DNA of 64,000 bases. It comes from Curvibacter microcysteis. Its GTDB lineage: Bacteria; Pseudomonadota; Gammaproteobacteria; Burkholderiales; Burkholderiaceae_C. How positions within the stretch are numbered: the first letter of the stretch is position 1; the number at the start of each line of letters is the position of its first letter. The notes beneath the pieces are model-generated. The model had not been told where the DNA came from. It did no database searches and saw only the letters and a program-made list of their open reading frames with translations. Shown here one piece after another: positions 6,295 to 22,373 of the stretch. Location of the stretch: positions 372,001 through 436,000 of the forward strand of contig NZ_JAQSIO010000003.1 in NCBI RefSeq assembly GCF_028649455.1, given 5' to 3'. The position numbers and the translations under genes were made by a program.

Positions 6295-7713
6295 TCAGCC
6301 CCCGTGCAAGGCCTGTCCGTAAAAGGACTCGCCCCCCATCTGCCCGCCCTTGAGCACCACTTCCAGCCCATCCCGCTGGGGGTGGGTGGACCAGGCGCGG
6401 CACAGCGGTGCCCCGGGGGTGAGCCGGGCCAGCACGGTCAGCGCGTCAAGTCCCAGCACGCTGGCCACTTCGCCAGAGCTGTCCCCGCCAGCCACCACAA
6501 TGCGCCGCAGCGGGTGTTGGTCGAGCAGGCGTTTCATGACCTCGGCCAGGCAGGCCCCCACGCAGCGGGCGGCCTCGGTCCGGCTCAGCCCGGCTTGCGC
6601 GGCATGCTGGTCGAAGGCCAGTACCTCCGGGTCATCAGGGCCTTCGGCGCTGAAGACCAGGGCGCTGCGCCCGGCCGACAGCGCCTGGCCCGCCTGGGCC
6701 AGCACGCGCTGCAGTTCGGCCTCGCGCCGCGCCGGCTGCAAGCAGGCCGCCACGGCCAGGCGTTCGGTGGCAAAGCCGTGCGCGCGCGCCCAGCGGATCT
6801 GGGCGGCTGACACGGGGGAACAGCTGCCACTGACGGCGGCGATCTGGGACACGGGCTGGGTCTCGGGCAACGCCGTGTGGGCCGGCAGCCAGCCCTCGCT
6901 GCGCCAGTAGGCGGTGAGGGCATAGCACAGACCCGAGGACGAGGCGCTGAACAAACCCTGGCCCCGTTGGCGCCAGACCAGCCGGCCCGCTTCGAGCAGG
7001 GTGTCCTCGTCCAGCACGTCGATGAACACGATGGGGGCCTCCGCCTGGGGGGACGTCGCGCCCGCTTCGTCGGCCTCAGGCTGGCGGCAGGCCGTGAGCT
7101 GGGCATGGGCGTCGCCCGATTTCAGTTGCACCATGTCCACCAGGCCCATGCGGCGGGGGGTTTGCGCGGCCAGATGGCGGCGCAGGTCCGATTCGCCCAT
7201 GGGGGTGACGGGGTGGCGCGACATGGTGGGGTGGCGGTCCAGCCGGTAGCCCACGCCGTCCACGGCCGCAAACAGGTGGCCAAACACTTGGTAGCGGCGC
7301 AGCCGGGGCGCGCCGACCACGGTGGGGCTCCAGTGGCCGCCCATGTGCTGCAGGCCGATCTCGATGGCGCAGCCAATCGAGCCGAGGCTGGGCGATGAAT
7401 CAAAGGTGGAGCACACCTTGTAATGCAGGATCGGGGCGCCCAGGGCCTTCAAGCTGGCAAAGGCCTGGGGCAGTTCAGCGCGCATCCACTCGGGGGAGCG
7501 GCCCCGTGAGGAGCCAGCCAGGCCCACGCAGCGCACACCGGGAAAGCGCTGCAGGGCCTCGGGCGTGGGGGGCGCCAGAAACAGCACGGTGGGCACGCCC
7601 GCCGCCGTCATGGCTTCCATGGCGTCGGTGGAGCCCGTGAAGTCATCGCCGTAATAGGCCAGCAGCAGGCCCTCGGGCAGTGGGGCAGGCTGGTGGTCGT
7701 CGTTGGGGCTCAT
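6295..7713 (-). CDS. oiaK: four-carbon acid sugar kinase family protein (DUF1537), probable 3-oxo-isoapionate kinase
   Basis: ATP-dependent kinase of the DUF1537 / four-carbon acid sugar kinase family, 472 residues. The N-terminal substrate domain carries the family hallmark YYGDDFTGSTDAMEA (residues 20-34). The C-terminal nucleotide domain carries VVAGGDSSGEVAS and PGAPLCRAW. Members phosphorylate acid sugars such as threonate, erythronate or 3-oxo-isoapionate. Its position after a RuBisCO-like protein and an ApnO-like oxidoreductase points to 3-oxo-isoapionate 4-kinase (OiaK). Its ATG overlaps the stop of the RuBisCO-like gene (ATGA), indicating translational coupling. A TTG start at 7719 is also possible. 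Family is secure; substrate is inferred from neighbours. Confidence 0.8.
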   Translation of the reverse strand: MSPNDDHQPAPLPEGLLLAYYGDDFTGSTDAMEAMTAAGVPTVLFLAPPTPEALQRFPGVRCVGLAGSSRGRSPEWMRAELPQAFASLKALGAPILHYKVCSTFDSSPSLGSIGCAIEIGLQHMGGHWSPTVVGAPRLRRYQVFGHLFAAVDGVGYRLDRHPTMSRHPVTPMGESDLRRHLAAQTPRRMGLVDMVQLKSGDAHAQLTACRQPEADEAGATSPQAEAPIVFIDVLDEDTLLEAGRLVWRQRGQGLFSASSSGLCYALTAYWRSEGWLPAHTALPETQPVSQIAAVSGSCSPVSAAQIRWARAHGFATERLAVAACLQPARREAELQRVLAQAGQALSAGRSALVFSAEGPDDPEVLAFDQHAAQAGLSRTEAARCVGACLAEVMKRLLDQHPLRRIVVAGGDSSGEVASVLGLDALTVLARLTPGAPLCRAWSTHPQRDGLEVVLKGGQMGGESFYGQALHGG

Positions 7714-8957
7714 CGCCAAAACTCCAAAGCCTGCCGCAGCGCCGGCGATTGTTGGGCTGCCTGCGCCAGCGGGACCCCCTCTTGCGCGGCTTGCCAGGCA
7801 TCGCGAAACGATTGCACCCCAGCGGCCACGCCCCCGGGGTGGCCAAAAATGCCGCCCCCTGCGGTGTGGATCAGGTCGGCGCAGCCCAGGCCGTCAAAGG
7901 TGTCCTGGGCCTGCAGCCCGGTCTGGCCCGAGCTGAAGACGGGCATGGCGGTCATGGGGGCGCTTTCCATGACCGGGGCCAGGACCGTGCGCGCCGCGGC
8001 CATCACGCTGTCGTCGGCTTCGCTGAATTTGTTGCGCAGGCCGTTCACATGCAGGTGGTCGGCCCCGGCCAGGCGCCAGATTTTTTGCCAGGGGCCGTAA
8101 TCGAAGCCCAGTTGGGGCGAGCGGCTCAGGTAACCCCAGCCGGCCCGGTGGGCGTGGATGGGCAGTTGGGCGTGGCGGCGCAGTTCGGTCATGCCGACCA
8201 GCCCGATCGAGTTGAGGCAGGCCATCACGCAGGTACCGCCCTCGGCCAGCACCAGGTCGTGGCGCCGCTTCATCTGGTCCAGGTTGCCCGTCAGGTTGAA
8301 GGCCACCATGGGCTGGCGGCCCAGCTTGTCGGCGGCCTGGCGCACCACACGCATCACGGCGCGCACGCGCTCGTCAAAGGGGCAGGCGGGGCCGTCGGCC
8401 TGCAGCTCGTCGTCCTTGATGAAGTCGATGCCGCCGTCCACCAGCAGTTGCACCTGCTGCTCGGTTTCGGCCACGCTGAGGCCGACGCTGGGCTTGATGA
8501 TGGTGCCGATCAAAGGGCCGTGCGCCACCCCACTCAGGTGCCGCGTGCCGTCCACCCCAAAGGCCGGACCTGGGTAGGCCTGGGCAAAGGCGGGCGGCAG
8601 TTGCAGGTCCAGCAGGCGCAAGCCGGTGACGCAGCGCAGCTCAAACAGGTTGCCAGCCACCGTGGCCATCAGCGTGGGCAGGCAAGGGCCCAGGTTGGCC
8701 AAGGGCCAGGACAGCGTCAAGCGCACCTGGGTGTAGCGGCCGCTGGGCGCTGGGGCCGGCGTGGGCAGGCTGGGCTGGGCGCTGTGGCCCAGGACTTCCA
8801 AGTGCTCGACCCGGGCTCCGGCCCGGGCCTTGAGTTCGGGCGTCTCGGTGGGCAGGGCGACAAAGGTGCCGCTGGACTGCTCGCCAGCAATCACCTCGGC
8901 CGCGTGCGCTGGGTCGTCGCCGGTCTCCAGCCAGTAGGTGGCGTAGATGCGTTCCAT
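7710..8957 (-). CDS. RuBisCO-like protein, probable 3-oxo-isoapionate-4-phosphate decarboxylase or transcarboxylase/hydrolase
   Basis: A 415-residue form IV (RuBisCO-like) protein. Compared with RuBisCO it keeps the first active-site lysine region (GTIIKPSVGLS, Lys155), the carbamylated-lysine metal site KDDE (Lys181, Asp183, Glu184), the IHAHRAGW His region (about 268-270), an FSSGQTG segment (342-347) and the phosphate-binding TAGGGIFGHPGG loop (366-376). It should therefore be a metal-dependent enolising enzyme acting on a phosphorylated keto sugar acid. With ApnO-like and OiaK-like partners the likely substrate is 3-oxo-isoapionate 4-phosphate. Two known outcomes exist, decarboxylation (OiaX) or transcarboxylation/hydrolysis (OiaT), and I cannot tell them apart by eye. 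Start ATG at 8957; a TTG at 8966 is possible. Confidence 0.82.
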   Translation of the reverse strand: MERIYATYWLETGDDPAHAAEVIAGEQSSGTFVALPTETPELKARAGARVEHLEVLGHSAQPSLPTPAPAPSGRYTQVRLTLSWPLANLGPCLPTLMATVAGNLFELRCVTGLRLLDLQLPPAFAQAYPGPAFGVDGTRHLSGVAHGPLIGTIIKPSVGLSVAETEQQVQLLVDGGIDFIKDDELQADGPACPFDERVRAVMRVVRQAADKLGRQPMVAFNLTGNLDQMKRRHDLVLAEGGTCVMACLNSIGLVGMTELRRHAQLPIHAHRAGWGYLSRSPQLGFDYGPWQKIWRLAGADHLHVNGLRNKFSEADDSVMAAARTVLAPVMESAPMTAMPVFSSGQTGLQAQDTFDGLGCADLIHTAGGGIFGHPGGVAAGVQSFRDAWQAAQEGVPLAQAAQQSPALRQALEFWR

Positions 8958-8973
8958 GGTGTCCAAAGGGGGC

Positions 8974-9804
8974 TCAGGTGATGCGGCGGATGCTTTCGGC
9001 GATCTCGTCGCGCTCGAAGACCTTGATCCAGTCGTCGCGCATCAGGCGAGGCTTGCCGAAAGTGATGGCCTTGTTGCAGGCGTCCGAGAAGGCGCCTGGC
9101 ACTTCCTTGAAGATCACCGCGGCCAGGATGTTCATGTGGCCCAGCAGGAAGTCGCGCGCGCACTCGGCGGGCACGCCCCGGCGCACGGTTTCGTCCATGG
9201 CTTCGCGCATCACGTCGAGCAGGGTGGCGCAGACGGTTTCGGACAGGCCGGGCTCCAGCAGCGCCATCTGCTCCACGGTCAGGCGGTAGGAGTTGAGGAT
9301 GGGGGCGTAAATGGTCTTGGCCAGTTCTTCGCCCAGGTCAAAGGCCGACTCGGGGCCTTGCATCAGCGCGCTGGTGATGGACTGCTTGGCAAAGCCGCCG
9401 CCAAAGTAGTCCTTGCGGGCCGCTTCGGTGGTTTCGTTGTTGTAGATCGGTGGGTGGCAAGGGTGGGCCACGAAGTAGGTCAGGTCGTCCCGTTGCGGCA
9501 GGTGGCCCGCAAATGGGGCGGCTGCGTCCAGCACCATGACCATGGTGCCGGGCTTGAGCAGGGGCTCGATCTGGTGCGAGATCTTGCCAATCAGGTTGTC
9601 GGGTACGGCGAGGATGACGACATCAGCACCTTGCAAAGCGTCTTCGGTGCTGACCACCGACAGGCCCAGCTCATCGCGCAGGCGCTGCTGGCCAGCGGCA
9701 CCGGGTTCGACGTGGGCCACGCGGAAGCGCGAGTTCAACAGGTTCTTGGACAGGCGTACGCCCATCTTGCCGCCGGCGCCAAACAAGGCAATTTTGGGAT
9801 TCAC
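8974..9804 (-). CDS. apnO: NAD(P)-dependent oxidoreductase with phosphogluconate dehydrogenase-like C-terminus, probable D-apionate oxidoisomerase
   Basis: First gene of the RuBisCO-like-protein operon, 276 residues. The N-terminal Rossmann fold has the dinucleotide motif GAGGKMG (residues 8-14). The C-terminal helical part resembles the phosphogluconate dehydrogenase C-terminal family that includes ApnO, which oxidises and isomerises D-apionate to 3-oxo-isoapionate. I chose the GTG at 9804 (VNPKIALFG) because a clear AAGGAG site lies 8 bases upstream (minus strand, 9813-9818) and the Rossmann strand then begins at once. The frame continues upstream to 9930 without recognisable protein features. 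Assignment rests on family plus the adjacent kinase and RuBisCO-like gene. Confidence 0.75.
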   Translation of the reverse strand: MNPKIALFGAGGKMGVRLSKNLLNSRFRVAHVEPGAAGQQRLRDELGLSVVSTEDALQGADVVILAVPDNLIGKISHQIEPLLKPGTMVMVLDAAAPFAGHLPQRDDLTYFVAHPCHPPIYNNETTEAARKDYFGGGFAKQSITSALMQGPESAFDLGEELAKTIYAPILNSYRLTVEQMALLEPGLSETVCATLLDVMREAMDETVRRGVPAECARDFLLGHMNILAAVIFKEVPGAFSDACNKAITFGKPRLMRDDWIKVFERDEIAESIRRIT

Positions 9805-9910: not shown

Positions 9911-9929
9911 TGGTGTGATGAGTAGACCA
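9911..9929. promoter_or_regulatory. candidate GntR/FadR-type operator between apnO and its regulator
   Basis: An interrupted palindrome with TGGT and ACCA ends separated by 11 bases, with further partial symmetry inside (TGGTnT...AnACCA). It sits about 107 bases before the apnO start and about 140 bases before the regulator start. TGG/CCA dyads are common for FadR-type regulators, but the spacing is longer than in the classical FadR site, so this is tentative. Confidence 0.35.
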
Positions 9930-10070
9930 CTTTGTGATTTCAGGAAAAACTGGGGTTTTCACGGACAGGGTCCCTGCACGGCTGGGTGAATCGGCCCGGG
10001 CCATAATCCAAAGCGGTGGCCCGTGCCACCCGTCCAAGCCCTCAGACCTCCCCATTCCCCCAAGCCCTGC

Positions 10071-10784
10071 ATGACCGAACCGATTCAGCGCCGCAAACTG
10101 TTCCAAGAGGTTCTGGACCGATTGATGAAGCGCATCCGTTCGGGGGACATCCCGCCCGGCGCGCAGCTGCCGTCGGAGCGGGAGCTGATGGAGGAATACG
10201 GGGTGGGACGCCCCGCCGTGCGCGAGGCTCTGCAAACCCTGGAGCGCTCGGGCATCGTGGAAATCGCGCATGGCGAGCGTGCACGCGTGGTGGTGCCCAC
10301 GGCGGCGCGCCTGATCGGCCAGGTGGCCGGAGGCGCCATGCACTTGCTGCGCAGTCAGCCCGATTCGCTGGAGCACCTGAAGGACGCGCGGCTTTTTCTG
10401 GAGACCGGCATGGCGCGCCTGGCGGCCGAACGCGCCACGGCGGCGGACATCGCGCGCCTGCGTGAGGCCGTGGCCCGGCACCGCGCCTCGCTGAATGACC
10501 TGGAAACCTTCATGGAGCTGGACATGGTGTTCCACCGCGAACTGGCCATGGTCAGCGGCAACCCCATCTTCCCGGCCATCGTCGAGGCCTTGTTCCGCTG
10601 GGCGGGGGAGTACTACCAGGCCATGGTGCGCGCCCCTGGGGTGGAGGACCTGACCCTGGCCGAGCACGAGCGCATCGTGGAGGCCATTGCCCAACACGAC
10701 CCCGAGGCCGCCGACCAAGCCATGCGGGCGCACCTGACACGGGCCAGCCAGCTGTACAAGACGACCAGGGAGCCCGCCGGCTGA
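10071..10784 (+). CDS. GntR-family transcriptional regulator, FadR subfamily (FCD domain)
   Basis: DNA-binding regulator of 237 residues, divergent from the apnO operon and therefore its probable local regulator. An N-terminal winged helix (about 8-75) includes IPPGAQLPSERELMEEYGVG and RPAVREALQTLE. A C-terminal all-helical FCD domain follows, with the expected metal/ligand residues Asp151, His155, His199 and His221. FCD regulators usually respond to an organic acid or its derivative, which would suit an apionate pathway intermediate. Start ATG at 10071 (MTEPIQRRKL) is preferred to an in-frame start at 10023, which only adds Pro-rich residues. No terminator is visible directly downstream. Confidence 0.88.
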   Translation: MTEPIQRRKLFQEVLDRLMKRIRSGDIPPGAQLPSERELMEEYGVGRPAVREALQTLERSGIVEIAHGERARVVVPTAARLIGQVAGGAMHLLRSQPDSLEHLKDARLFLETGMARLAAERATAADIARLREAVARHRASLNDLETFMELDMVFHRELAMVSGNPIFPAIVEALFRWAGEYYQAMVRAPGVEDLTLAEHERIVEAIAQHDPEAADQAMRAHLTRASQLYKTTREPAG

Positions 10785-11041: not shown

Positions 11042-11120
11042 CGGTCAGACCGAGGCTGGCTTCGTCACCGGAAGGTCATTTGCGCCACCTATACTCGCCG
11101 GCTCTGGTGACTGGAAACCC

Positions 11121-12473
11121 ATGAAGAACCGCATCCTCAAACCCCTGGGCCTCTTGGCTTGTACCTGGCCCTTGTTGTGGGGCGGCCTGGCCTCGGCAGC
11201 CGATGAGTCAGCAGGCGCTGCCGACACCGAGCAGGCCATGGCGCGCTTCCAAAGCACCTACATCTGGCAAAAGAAGTCCAACTTTTCTGCGGCCTACTCG
11301 GGACCCAACAGCCTGATCCCGCGATCTGAGCGCAGCTACACGCTGACTTTTGATGGCTACTTTGGCTTTCGGCCCTGGCAAAACGCCGAGTTGTACTTTG
11401 TGCCCGAGATCACCCAGGGCCTGCCTTTGTCCAACCTGACGGGCCTGGGCGGCTTCACCAGTGGTGAGGCGACCCGGGTCAGCGGCACCAACCCCACGCT
11501 TTACCGCCAAAAGCTCTTCCTGCGCCAGACCTGGAACCAGGGCGGTGGCCAGCAAAGGGTGGATGCCGATGTCGACCAGTTGGCCGGTTTTGTGGACCGT
11601 GACCGGGTGGTTCTGACCGCCGGTAACTTTTCTACCCTGGACATCTTTGACGACAACCTCTACGCCAAGGACCCGCGCAGCCAGTTTCTCAATTGGTCGG
11701 GCATGTCGCACCTCGCCTACGACTACGCGGCCGACGCGCGCGGCTTTGGCTGGGGGGCGGCGCTGGAGTGGTACACGGGGGACTGGGTGCTGCGCGCCGG
11801 TCGCATGACCGGGCCCACCACGCCCAATGGTTTGCCCACCGATCTGCGCATCTTCAAGCACTACGGCGACCAAGTTGAAGTCGAACACGCCCACACCCTG
11901 GCCGGTCAGCCGGGCAAGGTGCGGGTGCTGGCCTGGCGCTCTCGGGCCTTGCTGTCCAGTTATGCCGAAGCCTTGGCCTATGGCCAAGCCAACCCGAACG
12001 CCAGCAAAGAGTGGATTTCGGCGGTGCGCAACGGTGACAAGACCAAGTACGGTCTGGGCCTGAACGTGGAGCAGGCCGTCAACGACCGGTCGGGCGTCTT
12101 CCTGCGCGCCATGAAGGGCGATGGCAAGACCGAAACCTACGCTTTTGCCGAAGCCGATGCCTCGTTCTCCACCGGCTATTCGACCCGGGGCACCGCCTGG
12201 TCGCGCGACCAGGACACCTTGGGCCTGATGTACGCGCGCAACATGCTCTCGGCCGACCGGCGCAAGTACCTGGCGGCGGGTGGCATTTCTTTCTTCATTG
12301 GCGACGGCGCGCTGCGCTACCGGCCCGAGACCTTGTTCGAGGTCTACTACAACATGAAGGTGAGCAAGGGCCTGTGGGTGTCGCTGGACTACCAGCGCAT
12401 TGCCAACCCGGCCTACAACGCGGACCGGGGCCCGGTCAACGTGGGTTCTGTGCGCTTGCACGCGGAATTCTGA
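11121..12473 (+). CDS. carbohydrate porin (OprB-like outer-membrane channel)
   Basis: Outer-membrane beta-barrel channel of 450 residues. A signal peptide (about residues 1-26, ending near LASA-A) precedes a mature region rich in alternating aromatic/polar strands. The segments RFQSTYIWQKKSNFSAAYSG, LYFVPEITQG, LAGNF-like VLTAGNFSTLDIFDDNLYA and the final VGSVRLHAEF ending in Phe match carbohydrate-selective porins. Such proteins admit sugars or sugar acids. It lies next to the probable apionate module, so uptake of that substrate is conceivable, but no operon link exists. Start ATG at 11121 is chosen because it begins the signal peptide; the longer frame reads through the tRNA. Confidence 0.85.
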   Translation: MKNRILKPLGLLACTWPLLWGGLASAADESAGAADTEQAMARFQSTYIWQKKSNFSAAYSGPNSLIPRSERSYTLTFDGYFGFRPWQNAELYFVPEITQGLPLSNLTGLGGFTSGEATRVSGTNPTLYRQKLFLRQTWNQGGGQQRVDADVDQLAGFVDRDRVVLTAGNFSTLDIFDDNLYAKDPRSQFLNWSGMSHLAYDYAADARGFGWGAALEWYTGDWVLRAGRMTGPTTPNGLPTDLRIFKHYGDQVEVEHAHTLAGQPGKVRVLAWRSRALLSSYAEALAYGQANPNASKEWISAVRNGDKTKYGLGLNVEQAVNDRSGVFLRAMKGDGKTETYAFAEADASFSTGYSTRGTAWSRDQDTLGLMYARNMLSADRRKYLAAGGISFFIGDGALRYRPETLFEVYYNMKVSKGLWVSLDYQRIANPAYNADRGPVNVGSVRLHAEF

Positions 12474-12598: not shown

Positions 12599-14077
12599 TT
12601 ACTTCAGGATGTCGCCCAGGCACAGGTACTTGAGTTCCACGTAGTCGTCCATGCCGTGGTGCGAGCCTTCGCGGCCCAGGCCGGACTGCTTGACGCCGCC
12701 AAACGGCACGTGCTCGGTGGCAATGACGCCCGCGTTGATGCCGACCATGCCGTACTCCAGCGCCTCGCTGACGCGGAAGATGCGGCCCACGTCGCGGCTG
12801 TAGAAGTAGCTGGCCAGGCCGAACTCGGTGTTGTTGGCCGCATCGATGGCTTCTTGCTCGGTCTTGAAGCGGAACACCGGGGCGAAGGGACCAAAGGTCT
12901 CTTCACGGGCGCACAGCATGTCGGCCGTGGCGTCGGCCACCACGGTGGGTTCAACAAACTGGCCTTCCAGGGGCGTGCCGCCCGCCACCACGCGGCCACC
13001 CTTGGCCAGGGCGTCGGCCAGGTGGCGCTGCACTTTCTGCACCGCGGCGGGCTCGATCAGCGGGCCTTGGTTCACGCCGTCGGTGAAACCATTGCCCACC
13101 TTCAGGGCCTTGACCTTGGCGGCAAACTTCTCGACGAAGGCGTCGTACACACCGTCTTGCACGTAGAGGCGGTTGGCACAGACGCAGGTCTGGCCCGCGT
13201 TGCGGTACTTGCTGGCCATGGCGCCTTCGACGGCGCTGTCCAGGTCGGCGTCGTCAAACACGATGAAGGGCGCGTTGCCGCCCAGTTCGAGCGACATCTT
13301 CTTGACCGTGGGCGCGCTTTGCGCCATCAGGATGCGACCCACCTCGGTGCTGCCCGTGAAGCTGATGTGGCGCACGATGTCGCTGGCGCAGAACACCTTG
13401 CCCACGGCAATGCTGTTGTCGCCATCGGCGCTCAGCAGGTTCAGCACGCCGGCGGGGATGCCGGCGCGCACGGCCAGTTCGGCTGCGGCCAGGGCGGTCA
13501 GCGGGGTCAGCTCGGCGGGCTTGATGACCACGGTGCAGCCGGCGGCCAGGGCCGGGGCGACCTTGCGCGTGATCATGGCCAGCGGGAAGTTCCAGGGCGT
13601 GATGGCGGCGCAGACCCCGATCGGCTGCTTCATCACCATCAGGCGGCGGTTGTTGTCGAACTGGGGCAGGGTTTCACCGTTGACGCGTTTGGCTTCTTCG
13701 GCAAACCACTCCACAAAGCTGGCGCCATAGGCGACTTCGCCCTTGGCTTCGGCAAAGGGCTTGCCTTGCTCGGCGGTCATGATGCGGCCCAGGTCTTCCT
13801 GGTGGGCCATCAGCAGGTGGAACCACTTCAGCAGGATGGCGTGGCGCTCTTTGCCGGTCTTGGCGCGCCAGGCGGGCCAGGCGGCGTTGGCGGCGGCGAT
13901 GGCGGCTTCGGCGTCGGCCGGGCCCAGGTTGGCGACGTCGGCCAGCTTCAGGCCGGTGGCCGGGTCGTGCACGTCAAAACGGCTGCTGCCAGGCACCCAT
14001 TGGCCGTTGATCAAGGCGTCGGTCTTGAGCAGGCTGGGGTCGTTGAGCAGGGCGAGGGGGGAGGTCTTCATGTCCAT
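12599..14077 (-). CDS. gabD: succinate-semialdehyde dehydrogenase (NAD(P)+)
   Basis: Oxidises succinate semialdehyde to succinate, the last step of GABA catabolism. The 492-residue aldehyde dehydrogenase has the cofactor segment ITPWNFPLAMITRKVAPALAAG (159-180) with IKPAEL (Lys186). The general base Glu264 lies in LELGG and the catalytic Cys298 in NAGQTCVCANR, whose paired cysteines are typical of GabD. The start at 14077 has AGGA 10 bases upstream; ATG at 14071 is an alternative. It is the last gene of the operon, 51 bases after the ureohydrolase, and is followed by a strong terminator. The presence of gabT at the other end of the operon supports succinate semialdehyde over other aldehydes. 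Confidence 0.93.
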   Translation of the reverse strand: MDMKTSPLALLNDPSLLKTDALINGQWVPGSSRFDVHDPATGLKLADVANLGPADAEAAIAAANAAWPAWRAKTGKERHAILLKWFHLLMAHQEDLGRIMTAEQGKPFAEAKGEVAYGASFVEWFAEEAKRVNGETLPQFDNNRRLMVMKQPIGVCAAITPWNFPLAMITRKVAPALAAGCTVVIKPAELTPLTALAAAELAVRAGIPAGVLNLLSADGDNSIAVGKVFCASDIVRHISFTGSTEVGRILMAQSAPTVKKMSLELGGNAPFIVFDDADLDSAVEGAMASKYRNAGQTCVCANRLYVQDGVYDAFVEKFAAKVKALKVGNGFTDGVNQGPLIEPAAVQKVQRHLADALAKGGRVVAGGTPLEGQFVEPTVVADATADMLCAREETFGPFAPVFRFKTEQEAIDAANNTEFGLASYFYSRDVGRIFRVSEALEYGMVGINAGVIATEHVPFGGVKQSGLGREGSHHGMDDYVELKYLCLGDILK

Positions 14078-14128
14078 GGCTTGGATTTCCTGGGTTGGAA
14101 GGGGTCGTTGATCAGGGAGGCGTGGCGC

Positions 14129-15088
14129 TCAGCGGCAGGGCACGCCAGGCAACACACACAGCATTTCGTACAGCAGGTTGGCCGCCAGCAAGGCGGTGTT
14201 GCCGCTGCTGTCGTAGGGTGGGCTGACTTCAACGAGGTCGCAGCCTATCACGTTCAGGCCACGGCAGCCGCGCACGATTTCAAGGCCTTGCGCGACACTC
14301 AGACCGCCGATTTCCGGGGTGCCGGTGCCGCCTGCAAAGCTGGGGTCCAGGCCGTCGATGTCGAAGCTGATGTACACCGGGTGATCGGGGCCGATGCGCT
14401 TGCGCACCTGGGCCATCAGCGGGGCCAGCGACTGCCACCAGACCTCGTGCGCGGGCACGACGGTGAAGCCTTGCTGGCGCGGCCAGTCGAAGTCGTCGCT
14501 CGCGTAGCCGGTGCCGCGCAGGCCGATCTGCCAGACCTTGTCGCCCGCCAGCAGGCCTTCCTCCACGGCCCGGCGAAAGGGCGTGCCGTGGGCGATGGGT
14601 TCGCCAAACATGTGTTCGTTGACGTCGGCGTGCGCGTCCACGTGGATCAGGGCCACGGGACCATGGCGCTTGGCCACCGCGCGCAGGATCGGCAGGGCAA
14701 TCGTGTGGTCACCGCCCAGGGTCAGGGGCGTGCAGCCGTGGGCCAGCACCTCGTCGTAGAAGGACTCGATCAAATCCACCGACTTGCTCAGCGAGTAGGG
14801 GTTGATCGGCACATCGCCGAGGTCGGCCACTTGCAGCGCGTCAAACGGCGCGGCCCCGGTGGCCATGTTGTAGGGCCGCAGCAGGCAGGACTCGGCGCGG
14901 ATCTGGCGCGGCCCGAAGCGGGCGCCCGATCGGTTCGAGGTGCCCAGGTCCAGCGGCACGCCAATGAAGGCGGCGTTCAGGCCTTGCGCGGTGTTCACCA
15001 CGGGCAGGCGCATCATGCTAGCGATGCCGCCAAAGCGCGGCATGGTGTTGCCGCCCAAGGGCTGGTTGAGGTCGGATGAAGTGGTCAT
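14129..15088 (-). CDS. gbuA: ureohydrolase of the agmatinase family, probable guanidinobutyrase
   Basis: Mn-dependent ureohydrolase of 319 residues that splits urea from a guanidino compound. All metal ligands are present: His128 (GGDHT), Asp151, His153 and Asp155 (DAHADVN), and Asp243 and Asp245 (SFDIDGLDPS). The N-terminal NQPLGGNTMPRFGGIASMMR and the RPYNMATGAAPFD segment resemble, from memory, Pseudomonas 4-guanidinobutyrase (GbuA) more than E. coli SpeB. The operon also holds gabT and gabD, so a product of GABA, made from 4-guanidinobutyrate, fits best. Guanidinopropionase or agmatinase cannot be excluded. Start ATG at 15088 is preferred to upstream codons that overlap the permease. Confidence 0.8.
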   Translation of the reverse strand: MTTSSDLNQPLGGNTMPRFGGIASMMRLPVVNTAQGLNAAFIGVPLDLGTSNRSGARFGPRQIRAESCLLRPYNMATGAAPFDALQVADLGDVPINPYSLSKSVDLIESFYDEVLAHGCTPLTLGGDHTIALPILRAVAKRHGPVALIHVDAHADVNEHMFGEPIAHGTPFRRAVEEGLLAGDKVWQIGLRGTGYASDDFDWPRQQGFTVVPAHEVWWQSLAPLMAQVRKRIGPDHPVYISFDIDGLDPSFAGGTGTPEIGGLSVAQGLEIVRGCRGLNVIGCDLVEVSPPYDSSGNTALLAANLLYEMLCVLPGVPCR

Positions 15089-15107
15089 GACCAGGTCTCG
15101 GGGCCGA

Positions 15108-15926
15108 TCAGCGCTTGCGACCGCGCAGCCATTCAAGGGCCAGCAGCAAGCTGGTGGTGAACAGGATCAGCAGGGTGGCCACCGCGGCGATGGTGGGAGA
15201 GATGTTTTCGCGGATGCCGGTGAACATCTGGCGCGGCAGCGTGGCCTGCTCGGCACCAGCCAGGAACAGCGTCACCACCACCTCGTCAAAAGACGTGGCA
15301 AAGGCAAACAGCGCGCCCGACACCACGCCCGGTGCGATCACCGGCAGGGTGATGCGGAAGAAGGTGTTGAACGGCGTTTCGCCCAGGCTCAGCGAGGCTC
15401 GCACCAGGTTGTGGTTGAAGCCCGCCAGCGTGGCCAGCACCGTGGTCAGCACAAAGGGCGCGCCCAGCGCGGCGTGCACGATGATCAGGCCCACATAGCT
15501 GTCGGCCAGGCCCAGCGGTGCAAAGTACAGGTAAGCGGCCACGCCCACCACCACGATGGGCACCACCATGGGCGCGATCAGGATGCCCATCAGCAAGCCC
15601 TTGAAGGGGAAGCTGGCGCGCGAGAGACCCACCGCCGCCAGCGTGCCCAGCGTCGTGGCAATGAGCGTGGCCGCAGGGGCCACCATGAAGCTGTTGCGGG
15701 TGGCGCGGGCCCATTCGGGCGACTCAAACAAATGCACATACCACTTGGTCGACCAAGCCGGAATCGGGTAGGCCAGGAAGGAGCTGTCCGAGAACGACAG
15801 CGGCACCATCACCAGGATGGGGGCCAGCAAAAAAGCCAGCACCAGCACGCAGACGATGCGCACCAGCCACCAGCCGGCCTTGTCGGCCGCCGTGGCATAG
15901 AGGGGGAACACAGGCATTTTGATCAT
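15108..15926 (-). CDS. ABC transporter permease, PotC-like
   Basis: Inner-membrane permease of a spermidine/putrescine-type (PotABCD) importer, 272 residues with about six transmembrane segments. The EAA-type loop facing the ATPase is visible as RASLSLGETPFNTFFRITLPVIAPGV-like sequence. It starts 18 bases after the first permease and ends 19 bases before gbuA, in the middle of the catabolic operon. The substrate is therefore likely a polyamine-like or guanidino compound such as 4-guanidinobutyrate or GABA. That is inferred from neighbours only. Confidence 0.88.
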   Translation of the reverse strand: MIKMPVFPLYATAADKAGWWLVRIVCVLVLAFLLAPILVMVPLSFSDSSFLAYPIPAWSTKWYVHLFESPEWARATRNSFMVAPAATLIATTLGTLAAVGLSRASFPFKGLLMGILIAPMVVPIVVVGVAAYLYFAPLGLADSYVGLIIVHAALGAPFVLTTVLATLAGFNHNLVRASLSLGETPFNTFFRITLPVIAPGVVSGALFAFATSFDEVVVTLFLAGAEQATLPRQMFTGIRENISPTIAAVATLLILFTTSLLLALEWLRGRKR

Positions 15927-15944
15927 GTTGTCGTCCTTTCTGGG

Positions 15945-17192
15945 TTAGCCCAGACTGAGTTCTGCTTTGCCGATGCGGCGGTACACGCCGTACAGCAGCA
16001 GCGTGGCGGCCAGCAGCAGGGCGCCCAGGGCGCAGGCCATGCCCCAGTTCACTTCCACATTGGTGTAGCGGGCGATGTAGTAGCTCAGCATCTGGTCGTC
16101 CGCACCGCCCAGCAAGGCCGGGGTCACGTAGTAGCCAATCGACAGGATGAAAACCAGCAGGGCGCCTGCGCCGATCCCGGGGTAGGTTTGGGGCACGTAG
16201 ACGCGGAAGAAGGCGGCCAGCGGGGAGCTGCCCAGCGACACCGCTGCGCGCAGGTAGGTGGGCGGCACGCTTTTCATCACGCTGTACAGCGGCAAGATCA
16301 TGAAGGGCAGCAGGATGTGCACCATGGCAATCACCACGCCAGTGCGGTTGAACAGCAGGGGCAGGGGCTCGCTGATCAGGCCGATGCCCATCAGGCCGCG
16401 GTTGACCAGGCCTTCGGACTGCAGCAGCACGATCCAGGCGGCCACGCGCACCAGGATGGAGGTCCAGAACGGCACCAGCACCACGATCATCAGCACATTG
16501 GCGCTGCGCTCGGGCAGCGAGGCCAGCCACCAGGCCAGCGGGTAGGCCAGCAACAGGCACAGCACGGTCACCACCAGGCTGATGTGGAAGGTGCGCAGCA
16601 AGATGGCGCCAAACGCGCGCTGGTCTTCGGGCATGCGCTCGACCTGGCCTTGCGCGTCGCGCTTGAGGTCGACCGAGGCCAAGAGGTAGTCGGGCGTCCA
16701 GCGCGAGCCATTCTTGGCAATCGCCTGCCAGAAGCTGGGCTGGCCCCAGCGGGCGTCGGTTTGCAGCAGGCGCTCGCGCACCTCGTCGGCACTGCCCGCC
16801 ATGGGCAGCGCGCGGTAAGCGCCCATCACCAGCGAGCGGGCGCCGGGCACTTCGGAATTGAGGCGCCGCGCCAGTTGCCCGGCGTCGGCGCTGTCGGGCA
16901 GGTGGGCCAGGTCGCGCATCAGCGCGGCGTAGGCCGAGGCGCCCGGGGCCTCGCGCCCATCCCAGCCGTCCAGCGCACGCACGGTCTGGGGCAGGGCATT
17001 GGCGACCTCGGGGTTCTCCACCGCGCGCTGCAGCAGCGCGACGATGGGCACCAGCAGGGTCAGGAGCAAAAACACCAGCAAAGGCAGGGTCAGCCCGAAC
17101 GCCCGCCATTGGCGGCGCGATTCAGCGCGGGAGAGGGCGCGGCGCAGCGCGCCGGGCTCAGCGCCGTCGAGGGCGGTCAGGGTGTCGGCCAT
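15945..17192 (-). CDS. ABC transporter permease, PotB-like with large periplasmic insert
   Basis: First permease of the PotABCD-like importer, 415 residues. It is longer than E. coli PotB (about 275-285) because a hydrophilic insert of roughly 120 residues lies between transmembrane helix 1 (about 33-53) and the next helix (about 197-217). The insert is Ala/Arg-rich, with MRDLAHLPDSADAGQLARR-like helices. The C-terminal permease domain has the EAA loop (RAAVSLGSSPLAAFFRVYVP). This enlarged type occurs in other polyamine-like importers of Burkholderiales to my knowledge. It starts 48 bases after the binding protein gene. Confidence 0.87.
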   Translation of the reverse strand: MADTLTALDGAEPGALRRALSRAESRRQWRAFGLTLPLLVFLLLTLLVPIVALLQRAVENPEVANALPQTVRALDGWDGREAPGASAYAALMRDLAHLPDSADAGQLARRLNSEVPGARSLVMGAYRALPMAGSADEVRERLLQTDARWGQPSFWQAIAKNGSRWTPDYLLASVDLKRDAQGQVERMPEDQRAFGAILLRTFHISLVVTVLCLLLAYPLAWWLASLPERSANVLMIVVLVPFWTSILVRVAAWIVLLQSEGLVNRGLMGIGLISEPLPLLFNRTGVVIAMVHILLPFMILPLYSVMKSVPPTYLRAAVSLGSSPLAAFFRVYVPQTYPGIGAGALLVFILSIGYYVTPALLGGADDQMLSYYIARYTNVEVNWGMACALGALLLAATLLLYGVYRRIGKAELSLG

Positions 17193-17240
17193 GGGGTCGG
17201 GGCTCCGTCTTCTACTCAGGGTCGGTCAGGTGGGCGGGGC

Positions 17241-18272
17241 TTACTGGGTGGCCCAGGCGGCGAAACGCTTCTCCAGCGCCTCACCCTGGTCGGCCCAGAA
17301 GCTCACGTTGAACTGCAGGGCTTCCTTGGCGTTGCTGGCCGAGGTCGGCAGGTCGTCGAGCACCTTCTTGTCGAGCTTGGCCAGGGCCTTGGTGTTGGTC
17401 GGGCCGTAGGCGATGTTCTGGGCGTACACGGCCTGGTTGTTGGCTTGGGTGCCGAAGGCCAGGAACTTCATGGCCAGGTCCTTGTTCGGGGCGCCCTTGG
17501 GGATGACCCAGTAGTCCAGGTCGTAAATGCCGCCCGGCCAGTAGATCTTCAGGTTGCGGCCTTCGCGGTTGGCGGCGTCGATGCGGCCGTTGTAGACCGT
17601 GCTCAGCACCACGTCGCCCGCGACCAGGAACTGCGGCGCCTGGGCACCGGCTTCCCACCACTGGATGTTGGGTTTGAGTTCGGTCAGCTTCTTGAAGGCG
17701 CGGTCAGCGCCTTCCTTGGTGGCCAGCACCTTGTAGACGTCAGCGGGCTTGACGCCATCGGCGATCAGCGCGAACTCGAGGTTGTAGCGGGCGCCCTTGC
17801 GCATGCCGCGCTTGCCCGGGATCTTCTTGGTGTCAAAGAAGTCGGCCCAGCTGTTCGGGGCGGTCTTGAGCTTGTCGCCGTTGTAGGCCATGACGGTGGA
17901 CCACACGAACACGCCCACACCGCACTCGGTGACGGCCGCGGGCAGGAAGTCCGCCTTGTCGCCGATCTTGCTGTAGTCGAGCTTCTCGAACAGGCCTTCA
18001 TCGCAGCCGCGCACCGCGTCGGGCGATTCGACTTCCACCACGTCCCAGGTCACTTTCTTGGTCTCGACCATGGCCTTGATCTTGGCCTGTTCGCCGTTGT
18101 ATTCGACAGCCACCACCTTGGTGCCCGTCTTCTCGAAGGGCTCGTAGTACGCCTTCTTCTGGGCGTTGGCATTGGCACCGCCAAAGTTGACGATGGTCAG
18201 TTGCTGCTGCGCAAAGCTGGGCAGCGCCACACAGGCGGCCAGGGCGGCGCAGGTGATCAGGCTCTTTTTCAT
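17241..18272 (-). CDS. periplasmic substrate-binding protein of a PotD-like ABC importer
   Basis: Captures the substrate in the periplasm for the two permeases and the ATPase. The 343-residue precursor has a signal peptide (1-22, MKKSLITC...PSFA). The mature region begins LTIVNFGGANANAQKKAYY, which is typical of the PotD / extracellular solute-binding family that binds polyamines and related amines. Start ATG at 18272 is chosen because it begins the signal peptide and has AAGGA upstream; the longer frame is not credible. It sits between the ATPase and the first permease. Substrate is inferred from the linked gabT, gbuA and gabD. Confidence 0.9.
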   Translation of the reverse strand: MKKSLITCAALAACVALPSFAQQQLTIVNFGGANANAQKKAYYEPFEKTGTKVVAVEYNGEQAKIKAMVETKKVTWDVVEVESPDAVRGCDEGLFEKLDYSKIGDKADFLPAAVTECGVGVFVWSTVMAYNGDKLKTAPNSWADFFDTKKIPGKRGMRKGARYNLEFALIADGVKPADVYKVLATKEGADRAFKKLTELKPNIQWWEAGAQAPQFLVAGDVVLSTVYNGRIDAANREGRNLKIYWPGGIYDLDYWVIPKGAPNKDLAMKFLAFGTQANNQAVYAQNIAYGPTNTKALAKLDKKVLDDLPTSASNAKEALQFNVSFWADQGEALEKRFAAWATQ

Positions 18273-18360
18273 GGCACGGGTTCCTTGAGGTTGGGAGAGA
18301 AAAAATCGACTTACAACAAACACAGGGGAAGGGGCGAGCGCGTCGGGCGGCGCGCTCGGC

Positions 18361-19449
18361 TCAAACGGCATACAAACGGGTGGAGGGCGCTTCGAACACC
18401 AGACGCACCGCCTCGCCCGCTTGCGGGTGGGGGTTGCTGTCGGCGCGGGTCAGCGGCACCTTGACGGTGGCTTCGGCCTGGCCAGCGCCCAGCGCGCACA
18501 ACAGGCGCAGGTGGTCACCGTAGTAGATGGCGCGGGCCACGCGGGCGTCCAGGGCATTGGCCGGGGTGGGGCCGCTGGCCGCTTGCAAGGCGATGCGCTC
18601 GGGGCGCACACAGGCTTCCACGCGGGCACCGGCGGCGGCCTGGTTGACGTTCACGCCTTGCAGGCATTGGCCGTCGGGCAGTCGCAGGGTGTCACGGCCT
18701 TCCAGCGTGCCTTGCAGCACCGTGCTGTCGCCCACAAAGCCCGCCACAAAGCGGTTGGCCGGGGTTTCGTACAAGGCCTCGGGCGAGGCCAGGTGCTGGA
18801 TCACGCCTTCGTTGAAGACGGCCACGCGGTCGCTCATGGTCAGGGCTTCGCCTTGGTCGTGGGTCACGTAGACAAAGGTCACGCCGAGCTGGCGGTGCAG
18901 CTCCTTGAGTTCGATCTGCATGTGCTCGCGCAGCTGCTTGTCCAGCGCGCCCAGGGGCTCGTCCATCAGCACCAGCTGCGGCTCGAACACCAGGGCGCGG
19001 GCCAGGGCCACGCGCTGCTGCTGGCCGCCCGACAGCCGGGTGGGCAAGCGGTCGGCCATGCCCCCCAAGCGCACCATGTCCAGGGCCTTGGCGACGCGAC
19101 GGGCCTGCTCGTCCTTGGGCACTTTGCGCACGGTCAGCGGGTAGGCCACGTTCTGCCCCACGGTGAGGTGGGGAAACAGCGCGTAGTTCTGAAACACCAT
19201 GCCGAAGTTGCGCTTGTGGGGCGGCGTGCCGGTGATCTGGCGACCATCGAGCAGGATGTCGCCCGCGGTGGGCGACTCGAACCCGGCCAGCATCATCAGC
19301 GTCGTGGTTTTGCCCGAACCGGACGGGCCCAGCAGGCTGAGAAACTCGCCGCGCTGGATGTCCAGGTTCAGATCGCGCACCACCAGCTGTTCGCCGTCGT
19401 AGGTTTTTTGCACGCCAGTGAAGCGCACCAAGGGTTCTGCGTGAGACAT
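18361..19449 (-). CDS. ABC transporter ATP-binding protein, PotA-like
   Basis: ATPase subunit of the PotABCD-like importer, 362 residues. Walker A GPSGSGKT (41-48), Q-loop VFQNYALFPHLTVGQN, signature LSGGQQQR (139-146), Walker B LVLMDEP (159-165) and the switch VTHDQGEA are all present. A C-terminal TOBE-like regulatory region follows (about 270-362). It lies 38 bases after gabT and 88 bases before the binding protein, all on the minus strand. Everything needed for ATP hydrolysis is intact. Confidence 0.92.
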   Translation of the reverse strand: MSHAEPLVRFTGVQKTYDGEQLVVRDLNLDIQRGEFLSLLGPSGSGKTTTLMMLAGFESPTAGDILLDGRQITGTPPHKRNFGMVFQNYALFPHLTVGQNVAYPLTVRKVPKDEQARRVAKALDMVRLGGMADRLPTRLSGGQQQRVALARALVFEPQLVLMDEPLGALDKQLREHMQIELKELHRQLGVTFVYVTHDQGEALTMSDRVAVFNEGVIQHLASPEALYETPANRFVAGFVGDSTVLQGTLEGRDTLRLPDGQCLQGVNVNQAAAGARVEACVRPERIALQAASGPTPANALDARVARAIYYGDHLRLLCALGAGQAEATVKVPLTRADSNPHPQAGEAVRLVFEAPSTRLYAV

Positions 19450-19487
19450 GTTGTTCTGGTTTGGCGGGGGAGGTGGGCGTTGGCAGC

Positions 19488-20783
19488 TCAGCGCGCGGCG
19501 GCGAAGCTGTCGGCCAGGATGGCCAGGCCTTCGTCAAGAAGGGCGTCGGAAGCGGTCAGGGGCACCAGGATGCGGATCACGTTGCCGTAGGTACCGCAGG
19601 ACAGCAGCACCAGGCCCCGTTGGGCGGCTTCGGTCACCACGCGCTTGGTCAGGGCCGCGTCGGGTCGCAGGCCTTCGCCACCTTCTTCAAACAGCTCGAT
19701 GGCGACCATGGCACCCAGACCGCGCACATCACCAATGGCAGGGACCTTGGTGGCCAGTGCTTGCAAGCTTTGGACCAGGTGTTGGCCCATGGCCTGGCTG
19801 CGGGCCAGCAGTTGTTCCTCTTCAAACACCTTCAACACGGCCAGGGCGGCGGCGCAAGCCACCGGGCTGCCCGCGTAGGTGCCGCCCAGGCCGCCCGCTG
19901 CGGGGGCGTCGATCACCTCGGCGCGGCCCACCACGCCCGACAGCGGGAAGCCGCCGGCCATCGACTTGGCGGTGGTGATCAGGTCGGGTGCCACGGGCCA
20001 TTGTTCGCAGGCAAACCAGGTGCCGGTGCGGCCGGCGCCGGTCTGCACTTCGTCGGCGATCAGCAAGATGCCGTAACGGTCGGCCAGGGCCTTGAGGCCG
20101 CTGATGAATTCAGCCGGCGCCACATAGAAACCGCCTTCGCCTTGCACCGGCTCGACGATGAAGGCCGCCACGCGCTCGGGCTCGATGTCGTTCTTGAAGA
20201 TCAGTTCCACCGAGTGCAGGGCGTCGGCCACGCTGACCCCGTGCAGGGCATTGGGGAACAGGGCGTGGTAGACCTCGCCGGGGAAGGGGCCGAAGCCGAT
20301 CTTGTAGGGCGCGACCTTGCCGGTCAGGCCGAGGGTCAGGTTGGTGCGGCCGTGGTAGCCGCCGGTGAAGGCGATGACGCCGGGGCGCTTGGTGTAGGCG
20401 CGGGCGATCTTGATGGCGTTTTCCACGGCTTCGGCGCCGGTGGTCAGCAGCAGGCTCTTCTTGGCAAAGGCGCCCGGGGCCAGGGTGTTGAGGCGTTCGC
20501 ACACTTCGACGTAGGGCTCATAGGCCACGACTTGGAAGCAGGTGTGGGTGTAGAGGTCGAGCTGGGCCTTGACGGCCTCGATGATCTCGGGGTGCAGGTG
20601 GCCCGTGTTGAGCACGGCAATGCCGCCGGCGAAGTCGATGTACCGGCGGCCTTCGACGTCCCAGAACTCGGCGTTCAGCGCTTTCTGGATGAAGATTTCG
20701 TGCGACTGACCCACGCCTCGGGCCACGGCGGCTTGGCGGCGGGTGAGGAGGGCGGCGTTGGTGAAATGGCGTTCGTTTTGCAT
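19488..20783 (-). CDS. gabT: 4-aminobutyrate--2-oxoglutarate transaminase
   Basis: PLP enzyme that transfers the amino group of GABA to 2-oxoglutarate, giving succinate semialdehyde and glutamate. The 431-residue class III aminotransferase has the cofactor Asp244 in LLIADEVQTGAGRTG and the Schiff-base Lys273 in ITTAKSMAGGFPLSG. The SHEIFIQKALNAEFWDVEG N-terminal region also fits GabT. It is the first gene of the operon and is divergent from a MocR-type regulator. Start ATG at 20783 (MQNERHFTN) is used; the open frame extending upstream is antisense to the regulator. A role on 5-aminovalerate is also possible. Confidence 0.92.
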   Translation of the reverse strand: MQNERHFTNAALLTRRQAAVARGVGQSHEIFIQKALNAEFWDVEGRRYIDFAGGIAVLNTGHLHPEIIEAVKAQLDLYTHTCFQVVAYEPYVEVCERLNTLAPGAFAKKSLLLTTGAEAVENAIKIARAYTKRPGVIAFTGGYHGRTNLTLGLTGKVAPYKIGFGPFPGEVYHALFPNALHGVSVADALHSVELIFKNDIEPERVAAFIVEPVQGEGGFYVAPAEFISGLKALADRYGILLIADEVQTGAGRTGTWFACEQWPVAPDLITTAKSMAGGFPLSGVVGRAEVIDAPAAGGLGGTYAGSPVACAAALAVLKVFEEEQLLARSQAMGQHLVQSLQALATKVPAIGDVRGLGAMVAIELFEEGGEGLRPDAALTKRVVTEAAQRGLVLLSCGTYGNVIRILVPLTASDALLDEGLAILADSFAAAR

Positions 20784-20871
20784 GGTGTGCACCGGGCGTT
20801 GAAGGAATGGATGGACTGTAAAAAGCCCGCCACCCGCCGTCCATGTACACCGCCACGAGAATTTCCACACA

Positions 20872-20898
20872 CTGTGCAGGTCTAAAATCCTGTACAGG
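20872..20898. promoter_or_regulatory. candidate MocR/GabR operator: two direct repeats
   Basis: Near-identical 9-mers CTGTGCAGG (20872-20880) and CTGTACAGG (20890-20898) lie 18 bases apart start to start, in the 171-base spacer between gabT and the divergent regulator. The second also contains the perfect palindrome CTGTACAG, so the pair reads as an imperfect inverted repeat too. MocR/GabR regulators are known to bind repeated half-sites in such divergent spacers. Confidence 0.5.
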
Positions 20899-20954
20899 GT
20901 TTCCCTGATTTGGTGCGTCCGGCGCCAGCGCACTTCGTTCTTTTTCCTTCCCAG

Positions 20955-22373
20955 ATGCTCACACTCAGCCCTGAACTCCAGACTCCCTTGGTCAGCCAGA
21001 TCGTGGACGGCCTGCGGGGCCTGATTGCCGGCCAGGTGCTCAAACCCGGCAGCAAGCTGCCTTCCATCCGCGCTTTTGCGGTCACCCACGGCGTCAGCGT
21101 GTTCACCGTGGTCGAGGCCTATGACCGCCTGGTGGCCCAGGGTTGGCTGGTGTCGCGCGCCAATGCGGGCTTTTTCGTCAAGCGCCGCGATGAGGGCGGG
21201 CCCTTGGTGGGCGCGGCCTCGGTGGCGCGTGAGGCGCCCCGTTTTGATGCACGCTGGTACCTCAAGCAGATTTTTGAGAACCGCAACCTGCCGCTCAAGC
21301 CGGGTTGTGGCTGGTTGCCACACGATTGGTTGTTTGGCGATGCTGTGCGGCGCAGCATGCGGCAGCTTTCCAACGAGGGGCCCGAACTCGACGGCTATGG
21401 CCTGCCCTCGGGCCACATGGCGCTGCGCATGATGATTGCGGAGTCGCTGGCCGAGCACCAGATCGCCGTCGAAGCCGAGCAGGTGCTGCTGACCCATGGC
21501 TCCAGCCAGGCGCTGGACCTGGTGGCGCGGCGGGTGCTGAAGCCCGGCGATGCCGTGCTGGTCGACGACCCCGGCTACCCCAATTTGCTGTTCATGCTGC
21601 ACTTTGTGGGTGCGCGCCCGATCGGCGTGCCGCGCACGCCCACGGGTTACGACCTGGTGGCGCTGGAGGCCTTGATCCTTGAACACAAGCCCAAGGCTTT
21701 TTTCACCCAGCCTCGGCTGCAAAGCCCCACCTGCTCGATGGCCTCGGCGGCCCACCTGCACCGCCTGCTGCAATTGGCGGAGCAGCATGACTTCCTGCTG
21801 GTCGAGAACGACCTCTACGCCGACATGGATGCCAGCTCGCGGCCGTCCCTGGCCAGCCTGGATCAATTACACCGCGTCATCTACATCGGCAGCTATTCCA
21901 AAACCATTTCACCCAACCTGCGCGTGGGCTACCTGCTGGCGCGGCCTGATTTGCTGGCCGAGCTGGTGCAGCTCAAGATGATCGCCGGCCTGACCTCCTC
22001 GGACATTGCCGAGCGGGTGACCTTTGGCGTCATCACCGATGGGCGCTGGCGCAAGCACCTCAAGTCCTTGCGCGATCGCCTGGCCGAGGCGCACCGCCGG
22101 GTCGGCCGGCGCCTGGACAGCCTGGGTTTTGAGCTCTTTCACGAACCCGAGGCGGGCATGTACCTGTGGGCGCGCCACCCCGACCTGCCCGACAGCGCTG
22201 AGCTGTCCCAACTGGGCACGCAGGAGGGCATCATGCTCGGCCCGGGCCAGTTGTTTTTGGTCGAACCGCGCCCCACGGGCTGGTTGCGCTTCAACGTCGC
22301 CTTCAGCGAGGACGAGCGCCTGTGGCGCTTTCTGGCCCAGCGCATCGAGCAAGGCCAGCAGCTCGCCCAGTGA
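20955..22373 (+). CDS. MocR/GabR-type transcriptional regulator (GntR winged helix fused to aminotransferase domain)
   Basis: Probable PLP-dependent regulator of the divergent gabT operon, 472 residues. An N-terminal GntR winged helix (about 8-78) includes VLKPGSKLPSIRAFAVTHGV and AQGWLVSRANAGFFV. It is fused to an aminotransferase class I fold with DDPGYPN, Asp286 in VENDLYAD and the PLP-binding Lys316 in SYSKTISPNLRVGY. In GabR the PLP-GABA adduct switches transcription of gabT and gabD; the same logic is inferred here. Start ATG at 20955 is preferred over 20910. It ends 126 bases before alaS on the same strand. Confidence 0.9.
   Translation: MLTLSPELQTPLVSQIVDGLRGLIAGQVLKPGSKLPSIRAFAVTHGVSVFTVVEAYDRLVAQGWLVSRANAGFFVKRRDEGGPLVGAASVAREAPRFDARWYLKQIFENRNLPLKPGCGWLPHDWLFGDAVRRSMRQLSNEGPELDGYGLPSGHMALRMMIAESLAEHQIAVEAEQVLLTHGSSQALDLVARRVLKPGDAVLVDDPGYPNLLFMLHFVGARPIGVPRTPTGYDLVALEALILEHKPKAFFTQPRLQSPTCSMASAAHLHRLLQLAEQHDFLLVENDLYADMDASSRPSLASLDQLHRVIYIGSYSKTISPNLRVGYLLARPDLLAELVQLKMIAGLTSSDIAERVTFGVITDGRWRKHLKSLRDRLAEAHRRVGRRLDSLGFELFHEPEAGMYLWARHPDLPDSAELSQLGTQEGIMLGPGQLFLVEPRPTGWLRFNVAFSEDERLWRFLAQRIEQGQQLAQ

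Follow-up and report, generated by a model that had tools for sequence, protein, structure and literature searches.

A probable D-apionate operon of three genes

A compact three-gene operon on the minus strand of a 64,000-nucleotide stretch of Curvibacter microcysteis DNA (contig NZ_JAQSIO010000003.1, positions 372,001 to 436,000; hereafter, the window) is, on its sequence, very probably an OiaT-type operon for the catabolism of D-apionate, a branched sugar acid of plant origin. Its genes encode an ApnO-like protein, a form IV RuBisCO-like protein (RLP) and a DUF1537 kinase (Table 1). A first-pass annotation of this DNA had proposed a D-apionate pathway from the combination of these three families, leaving it open whether the RLP was of the OiaX or the OiaT type. 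The pathway proposal stands as a probable reading, since the kinase passes the curated OiaK equivalog model and the RLP groups with that of a Xanthobacter-like operon; the open choice is now narrowed, with the evidence favouring OiaT. The operon closely resembles the pathway described for Xanthobacter and is otherwise an ordinary catabolic operon.

In the proposed pathway, ApnO would oxidise and rearrange D-apionate to 3-oxo-isoapionate, which OiaK would convert with ATP to 3-oxo-isoapionate 4-phosphate. The RLP, as an OiaT orthologue, would then turn this intermediate into 3-phosphoglycerate, which would enter glycolysis, and glycolate, which would be oxidised by the glycolate oxidase of the same genome. 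Expression may be governed by a divergent GntR-type regulator acting at positions 9911-9929. What the sequences show is the identity, order and orthology of the genes and their co-occurrence; we infer each of these reactions, together with the site and the ligand of the regulator and the uptake of apionate rather than apiose.

The open reading frames and their coordinates agree with the three minus-strand genes as first annotated between positions 6295 and 9804, including the ATGA overlap of RLP and kinase, in which the kinase ATG occupies positions 7713-7711 and the RLP TGA positions 7712-7710. A gap of 16 bases separates the stop codon of the ApnO-like gene from the start of the RLP gene. 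The families named at that stage are borne out by Pfam for all three proteins and by NCBIfam for the kinase. That is, the ApnO-like protein matches PGDH_C (237.5 bits) and aligns across its full length with PDB 5T57 (488.8 bits), the RLP carries the RuBisCO_large and RuBisCO_large_N domains, and the kinase carries SBD_N and NBD_C. The kinase scores 806.5 bits on the OiaK equivalog model NF042436 (cut-off 700), with the next-best model, 3-oxo-tetronate kinase, staying below its cut-off (176.7 bits; cut-off 350). A second DUF1537 match in the genome, on contig C6, is itself a 3-oxo-tetronate kinase (626.2 bits; cut-off 350) and adjoins an L-threonate dehydrogenase gene and a major facilitator superfamily (MFS) gene.

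Table 1. Features of the operon and its surroundings, in window coordinates
Feature	Coordinates	Strand	Basis
apnO-like gene, probable NAD-dependent D-apionate oxidoisomerase	8974..9804	-	GTG start, 276 aa; PGDH_C, 5T57, Py2-like homologue
oiaT-like gene, form IV RLP, probable 3-oxo-isoapionate-4-phosphate transcarboxylase/hydrolase	7710..8957	-	ATG start, 415 aa; clade, discriminating columns
oiaK, 3-oxo-isoapionate kinase, DUF1537	6295..7713	-	ATG start, 472 aa; NF042436
GntR/FCD regulator, NanR-like subfamily, divergent	10065..10784	+	324.6 bits on NCBIfam subfamily model NF003011 (cut-off 260)
Operator-like site TGGTCTACTCATCACACCA between regulator and operon	9911..9929	-	one match in the window, 0.03 expected
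OprB carbohydrate-selective porin, possible substrate entry, uncertain member	11118..12473	+	Pfam OprB, 111.9 bits

Resemblance to known systems and conservation across genomes

Xanthobacter autotrophicus Py2 reportedly possesses a D-apionate operon of the order ApnO-OiaT-OiaK, the OiaT of which is said to yield 3-phosphoglycerate and glycolate. The genome that we take to be this strain (G1059, hereafter Py2-like) shows the same gene order as the window, and the proteins of the two operons are 77.2% (ApnO), 70.0% (RLP) and 64.5% (OiaK) identical. As in the window, the 20-kb stretch around the Py2-like operon gave no ApnL-like or Gfo/Idh match. The flanks differ: upstream of its ApnO the Py2-like operon carries an MFS gene and, further out, a LysR-type gene, whereas the window lacks the MFS gene and carries a divergent GntR-type gene. 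The RLP query gave two matches in the Py2-like genome, the oiaT-like RLP and a partial match of 34% identity which looks like its RuBisCO. The genome belongs to the same family as genome G388, whose RLP is, among the matches listed, 87% identical to that of Ancylobacter dichloromethanicus. RLPs from Agrobacterium radiobacter K84 and from X. autotrophicus appear in the available part of PMC6302742, the one from X. autotrophicus being, by order of mention, the transcarboxylase/hydrolase. Reactions of the D-apionate route are touched on in the available parts of PMC6302742, PMC11747546 and PMC10103415, and the route appears as a reference entry in that of PMC10176493.

Within the family of the window's genome, 14 of the 250 genomes searched (this one included) passed the OiaK cut-off. 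All 14 have an RLP beside the kinase, 64.7-100% identical to the window RLP, and in stretches of 14.6-22 kb all 14 also contain an ApnO-like gene and a NanR/GntR-type match. The joint presence of OiaK, RLP and ApnO in every OiaK-positive genome argues that their grouping is more than chance. For a wider view, we took from 123 RLP loci longer than 6 kb the 98 in which the RLP is flanked by 5 kb or more in both directions, counting a gene as present upon a tblastn match with an E value of 1e-8 or better over at least 40% of the reference protein. These loci come from several searches and are not de-duplicated, L136 (Limnohabitans parvus) and L189 being probably one genome counted separately; one scan of genome contigs kept the best 80 of at least 501 loci, and the Py2-like locus came from a separate search. 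In 92 of the 98 loci, the RLP gene has a DUF1537 kinase gene no more than 700 bases away, and in 68 the stretch contains an ApnO-like gene.

The OiaX-type D-apiose clusters (NF042437; L178 and L208-L212) share with the window an ApnO-like gene, a DUF1537 kinase, an RLP and a NanR-like regulator, present in all six. Unlike the window, they have an RLP over the OiaX cut-off, 41-43% identical to the window RLP, and add an RbsB-like ABC transporter and a Gfo/Idh gene (6/6), an ApnL-like gene (5/6) and TIM plus RpiB (4/6). The D-apiose-type cluster on plasmid pl1WSM5005 of Paraburkholderia sprentiae (L172) likewise contains an ApnO-like gene, OiaK, NanR (by its record name) and an OiaT-clade RLP 76.3% identical to that of the window. 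It differs in having an ABC sugar transporter, a Gfo/Idh oxidoreductase and ApnL, and in that RLP and OiaK are not adjacent; one protein of this region scores 770.4 bits on the D-apionate lactonase model, above its cut-off of 750. A marine strain described in the available part of PMC11747546 grows on D-apiose and has a cluster encoding a lactonase, a dehydrogenase, an oxidoisomerase, a kinase and a decarboxylase.

The RuBisCO-like protein groups with a probable OiaT

In a tree of 60 hand-picked rows, with the OiaX root set by choice, the RLPs of the window and the Py2-like genome fall into one 12-row clade with a support of 100/96; a 9-row set holding both has 88/94, the order inside the 12-row clade being not resolved. 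A quicker tree (105 of 154 sequences after thinning at 82% identity, with a single RuBisCO row as the outgroup) places the window RLP in a 12-row set (95) inside a 47-row set (99), with two OiaX rows forming a clade of their own (100) apart from it. The phylogenetic check that the first-pass annotation had called for thus puts the protein with the Py2-like RLP, and not with the methionine-salvage proteins or another clade. The structure PDB 3NWR, deposited as 'A rubisco-like protein', shares superfamily and KDDE motif with the window RLP, but lies in another group in both trees.

Individual residues point the same way. Using alignments from which the window RLP was left out, we derived 50 columns that are fixed in 13 OiaT-clade proteins and fixed otherwise in six OiaX proteins; at these, the window RLP carries the OiaT residue 49 times, the OiaX residue never and neither of them once. 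Many RLPs outside the OiaT clade also agree with OiaT at 30 to 44 of the 50 columns, so that these positions serve better to set OiaX apart than to define OiaT. Both the window and the Py2-like RLP keep N103, K155, K181-D182-D183-E184, H270-R271 and K310, which by analogy with RuBisCO would be metal-binding and catalytic residues, K181, D183 and E184 being the lysine and acidic residues that would bind the metal. In addition, TIM and RpiB genes lie near four of the six OiaX loci (the RpiB of L178 passing the DerI model with 252.9 bits; cut-off 240) versus none of the 92 other RLP loci, and neither has a match in the first 22 kb of the window. Where no OiaT model matches, clade position and the 50 columns thereby tell OiaT and OiaX apart, with a lack of TIM and RpiB as a less strict criterion.

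Upstream steps, uptake and product use

Several results weigh against an OiaT-type D-apionate operon. In the NCBIfam search, no curated ApnO model matched the ApnO-like protein, and the models matched by the RLP included OiaX and not OiaT. TIM and RpiB are absent near two of the six OiaX loci as well, so the lack of both does not by itself exclude OiaX. The Py2-like genome is only putatively that of strain Py2 (ATCC BAA-1158). A model search of the window's genome gave no match for the D-apionate lactonase ApnL. For the putative D-apiose dehydrogenase, a Gfo/Idh-type enzyme, there were only partial matches of 26-27% to the P. sprentiae protein, in a search without a positive control. In a relative of the same genus (G853), regulator and ApnO are separated by an MFS gene that the window locus lacks, and the product of this MFS gene has no close homologue in the window's genome, the best match (41%) lying beside the 3-oxo-tetronate kinase. 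In favour of the proposed pathway, the genome encodes on contig C1 two subunits of glycolate oxidase, GlcE (516.4 bits; cut-off 284) and GlcF (686.8 bits; cut-off 333). Against it, the strongest candidate for GlcD lies on a different contig, C13, and stays below both cut-offs (726.8 bits against 897, and 491.2 against 567.9), with neighbours that match WS/DGAT and AMP-binding families and no glcDEF operon.

Taken together, the missing ApnL match and the weak D-apiose dehydrogenase matches suggest that apionate, rather than apiose, is probably what the operon uses. The 13 further family genomes with OiaK gave no ApnL match either; the same search matched 5 of 24 genomes, four over the cut-off and one below it. 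With no match in any of the 14, apionate operons that lack the apiose steps may be usual in this family, and one may speculate that apionate is shared between community members. In 47 of the 68 ApnO-bearing RLP loci, the stretch contains no ApsD-like and no ApnL-like gene. A TRAP permease is present in 19 of the 47 and an MFS protein of at least 35% identity in 9; the remaining 19, the window included, have none of the transporters sought. The matches in the other compared stretches include no homologue of the OprB porin gene of the window, so that the link of this gene to the operon is weak.

Alternative readings

Were the RLP an OiaX-type decarboxylase, it would release CO2 and a tetrulose phosphate, which in the OiaX route is passed on by isomerases to D-erythrose 4-phosphate. 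The kinase and ApnO partner families are identical in that route, the RLP is 41-43% identical to the six OiaX proteins, and two of their loci lack TIM and RpiB as well; yet it reaches 426.8 bits on the OiaX model against a cut-off of 700, which none of 300 genomes from the order and six of 398 from the phylum pass, lies in a different clade and shows OiaX residues at none of the discriminating columns, with no TIM or RpiB match in the first 22 kb. On the curated cut-off, clade, columns and missing isomerases we ruled against an OiaX assignment, which appears highly improbable. That the RLP is the methionine-salvage enolase MtnW or a true RuBisCO, set beside the other two genes by chance, would fit the shared superfamily and the matches to the MtnW and form III models, but these stay far from their cut-offs (152.7 bits against 513.6 and 228.9 against 497.45), and the close kinase in 92 of 98 loci speaks against coincidence. 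Both assignments were rejected on these scores, and the chance of either is close to negligible.

It is quite unlikely, in our view, that the operon serves another branched sugar acid such as hamamelonate. The available part of PMC8914248 describes an RLP among the hamamelose genes of Ochrobactrum anthropi, with a last step tied to 3-phosphoglycerate and glycolate; the work of Kim et al. 2018 on hamamelose is described there and listed as a reference in the available part of PMC10176493. The same products, the missing ApnL match and the want of a clear D-apiose dehydrogenase in the window's genome would suit such a pathway, as would the 10 of 30 ApnO-less RLP loci that have a short-chain dehydrogenase/reductase (SDR) gene instead. 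The window, however, has an OiaK that passes its curated model and an ApnO-like gene, both highly identical to the Py2-like operon, and no SDR match in its first 22 kb, and RLPs of the same clade lie with ApnL-like genes at L172 and L123. A related possibility is a stand-alone acid-sugar module with no sugar enzymes or transporter of its own, whose substrate would be another branched acid, accepted jointly by ApnO, OiaK and the RLP and entering via the neighbouring OprB porin and an unlinked carrier; we regard this as unlikely.

Regulator and operator-like site

The divergent GntR/FCD gene, which has homologues in the stretches of all 14 OiaK-positive family genomes, probably regulates the putative D-apionate operon. 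We surveyed 33 hand-picked loci, the window included, for the operator-like motif between the two and found 22 sites with at most five mismatches from TGGTCTACTCATCACACCA in 18 loci; 60 shuffled motifs averaged 0.8 loci, with a maximum of 8. Twenty of the 22 sites precede an MFS, ApnO or GntR match by no more than about 120 bases; the exceptions are a site in L142 and another in L189. Fifteen loci have no site, three with a LysR-type regulator (L240, L242 and L243, the Py2-like locus among them) and 12 with a GntR-type regulator. The latter 12 indicate that the motif is not general for the GntR-type regulator and weigh against reading it as an operator. The regulator may nonetheless act at this putative site in the window.

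Neighbouring genes and other RLP loci

A single run of minus-strand genes at positions 12599-21866 of the window encodes an aldehyde dehydrogenase, an agmatinase (204.5 bits; cut-off 174.3), an ABC transporter and a class III aminotransferase, the aminotransferase frame being open for about 380 residues upstream of its domain. This is probably a separate guanidino or polyamine operon. For its polyamine/guanidino look, we set aside a link between the three-gene operon and the genes at 12.6-19.4 kb (those for the ABC transporter, the agmatinase and the aldehyde dehydrogenase), with which the relatives were not queried.

The SDR-bearing, ApnO-less RLP loci (L094, L098, L100, L157, L166, L169, L173, L174, L182 and L223) encode an SDR at least 48% identical to a reference SDR, L174 being itself a reference, and 9 of the 10 have the kinase within 700 bases. 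They may represent the hamamelose pathway or an undescribed acid-sugar pathway. At G672:C1:4123820-4125168 (L074, L221), the OiaK match is split over two slightly overlapping frames, possibly through a frameshift or an assembly error.

RLP-kinase pairs were also seen, among the matches listed, in haloarchaea, Bacteroidota, Chloroflexi and Acidobacteria (L161, L149, L162, L156, L141, L115, L116 and L118), five of these eight loci having an ApnO-like gene. Another pair, on plasmid p2 of Cupriavidus pinatubonensis (L175), falls outside the OiaT clade in the larger group that holds 3NWR. Its neighbours include two enolases, pyruvate kinase, phosphoenolpyruvate carboxylase, 3-oxo-tetronate genes and an ApnO-family gene, as if the product of this RLP were 3-phosphoglycerate. 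A Rhizobium phaseoli plasmid encodes an RLP 65.2% identical to that of the window. In the available part of PMC8914248, rhizobial rlp mutants are read in terms of CO2 fixation and the neighbours of rlp relate to ribose transport; these neighbours resemble the ABC genes of the D-apiose clusters.

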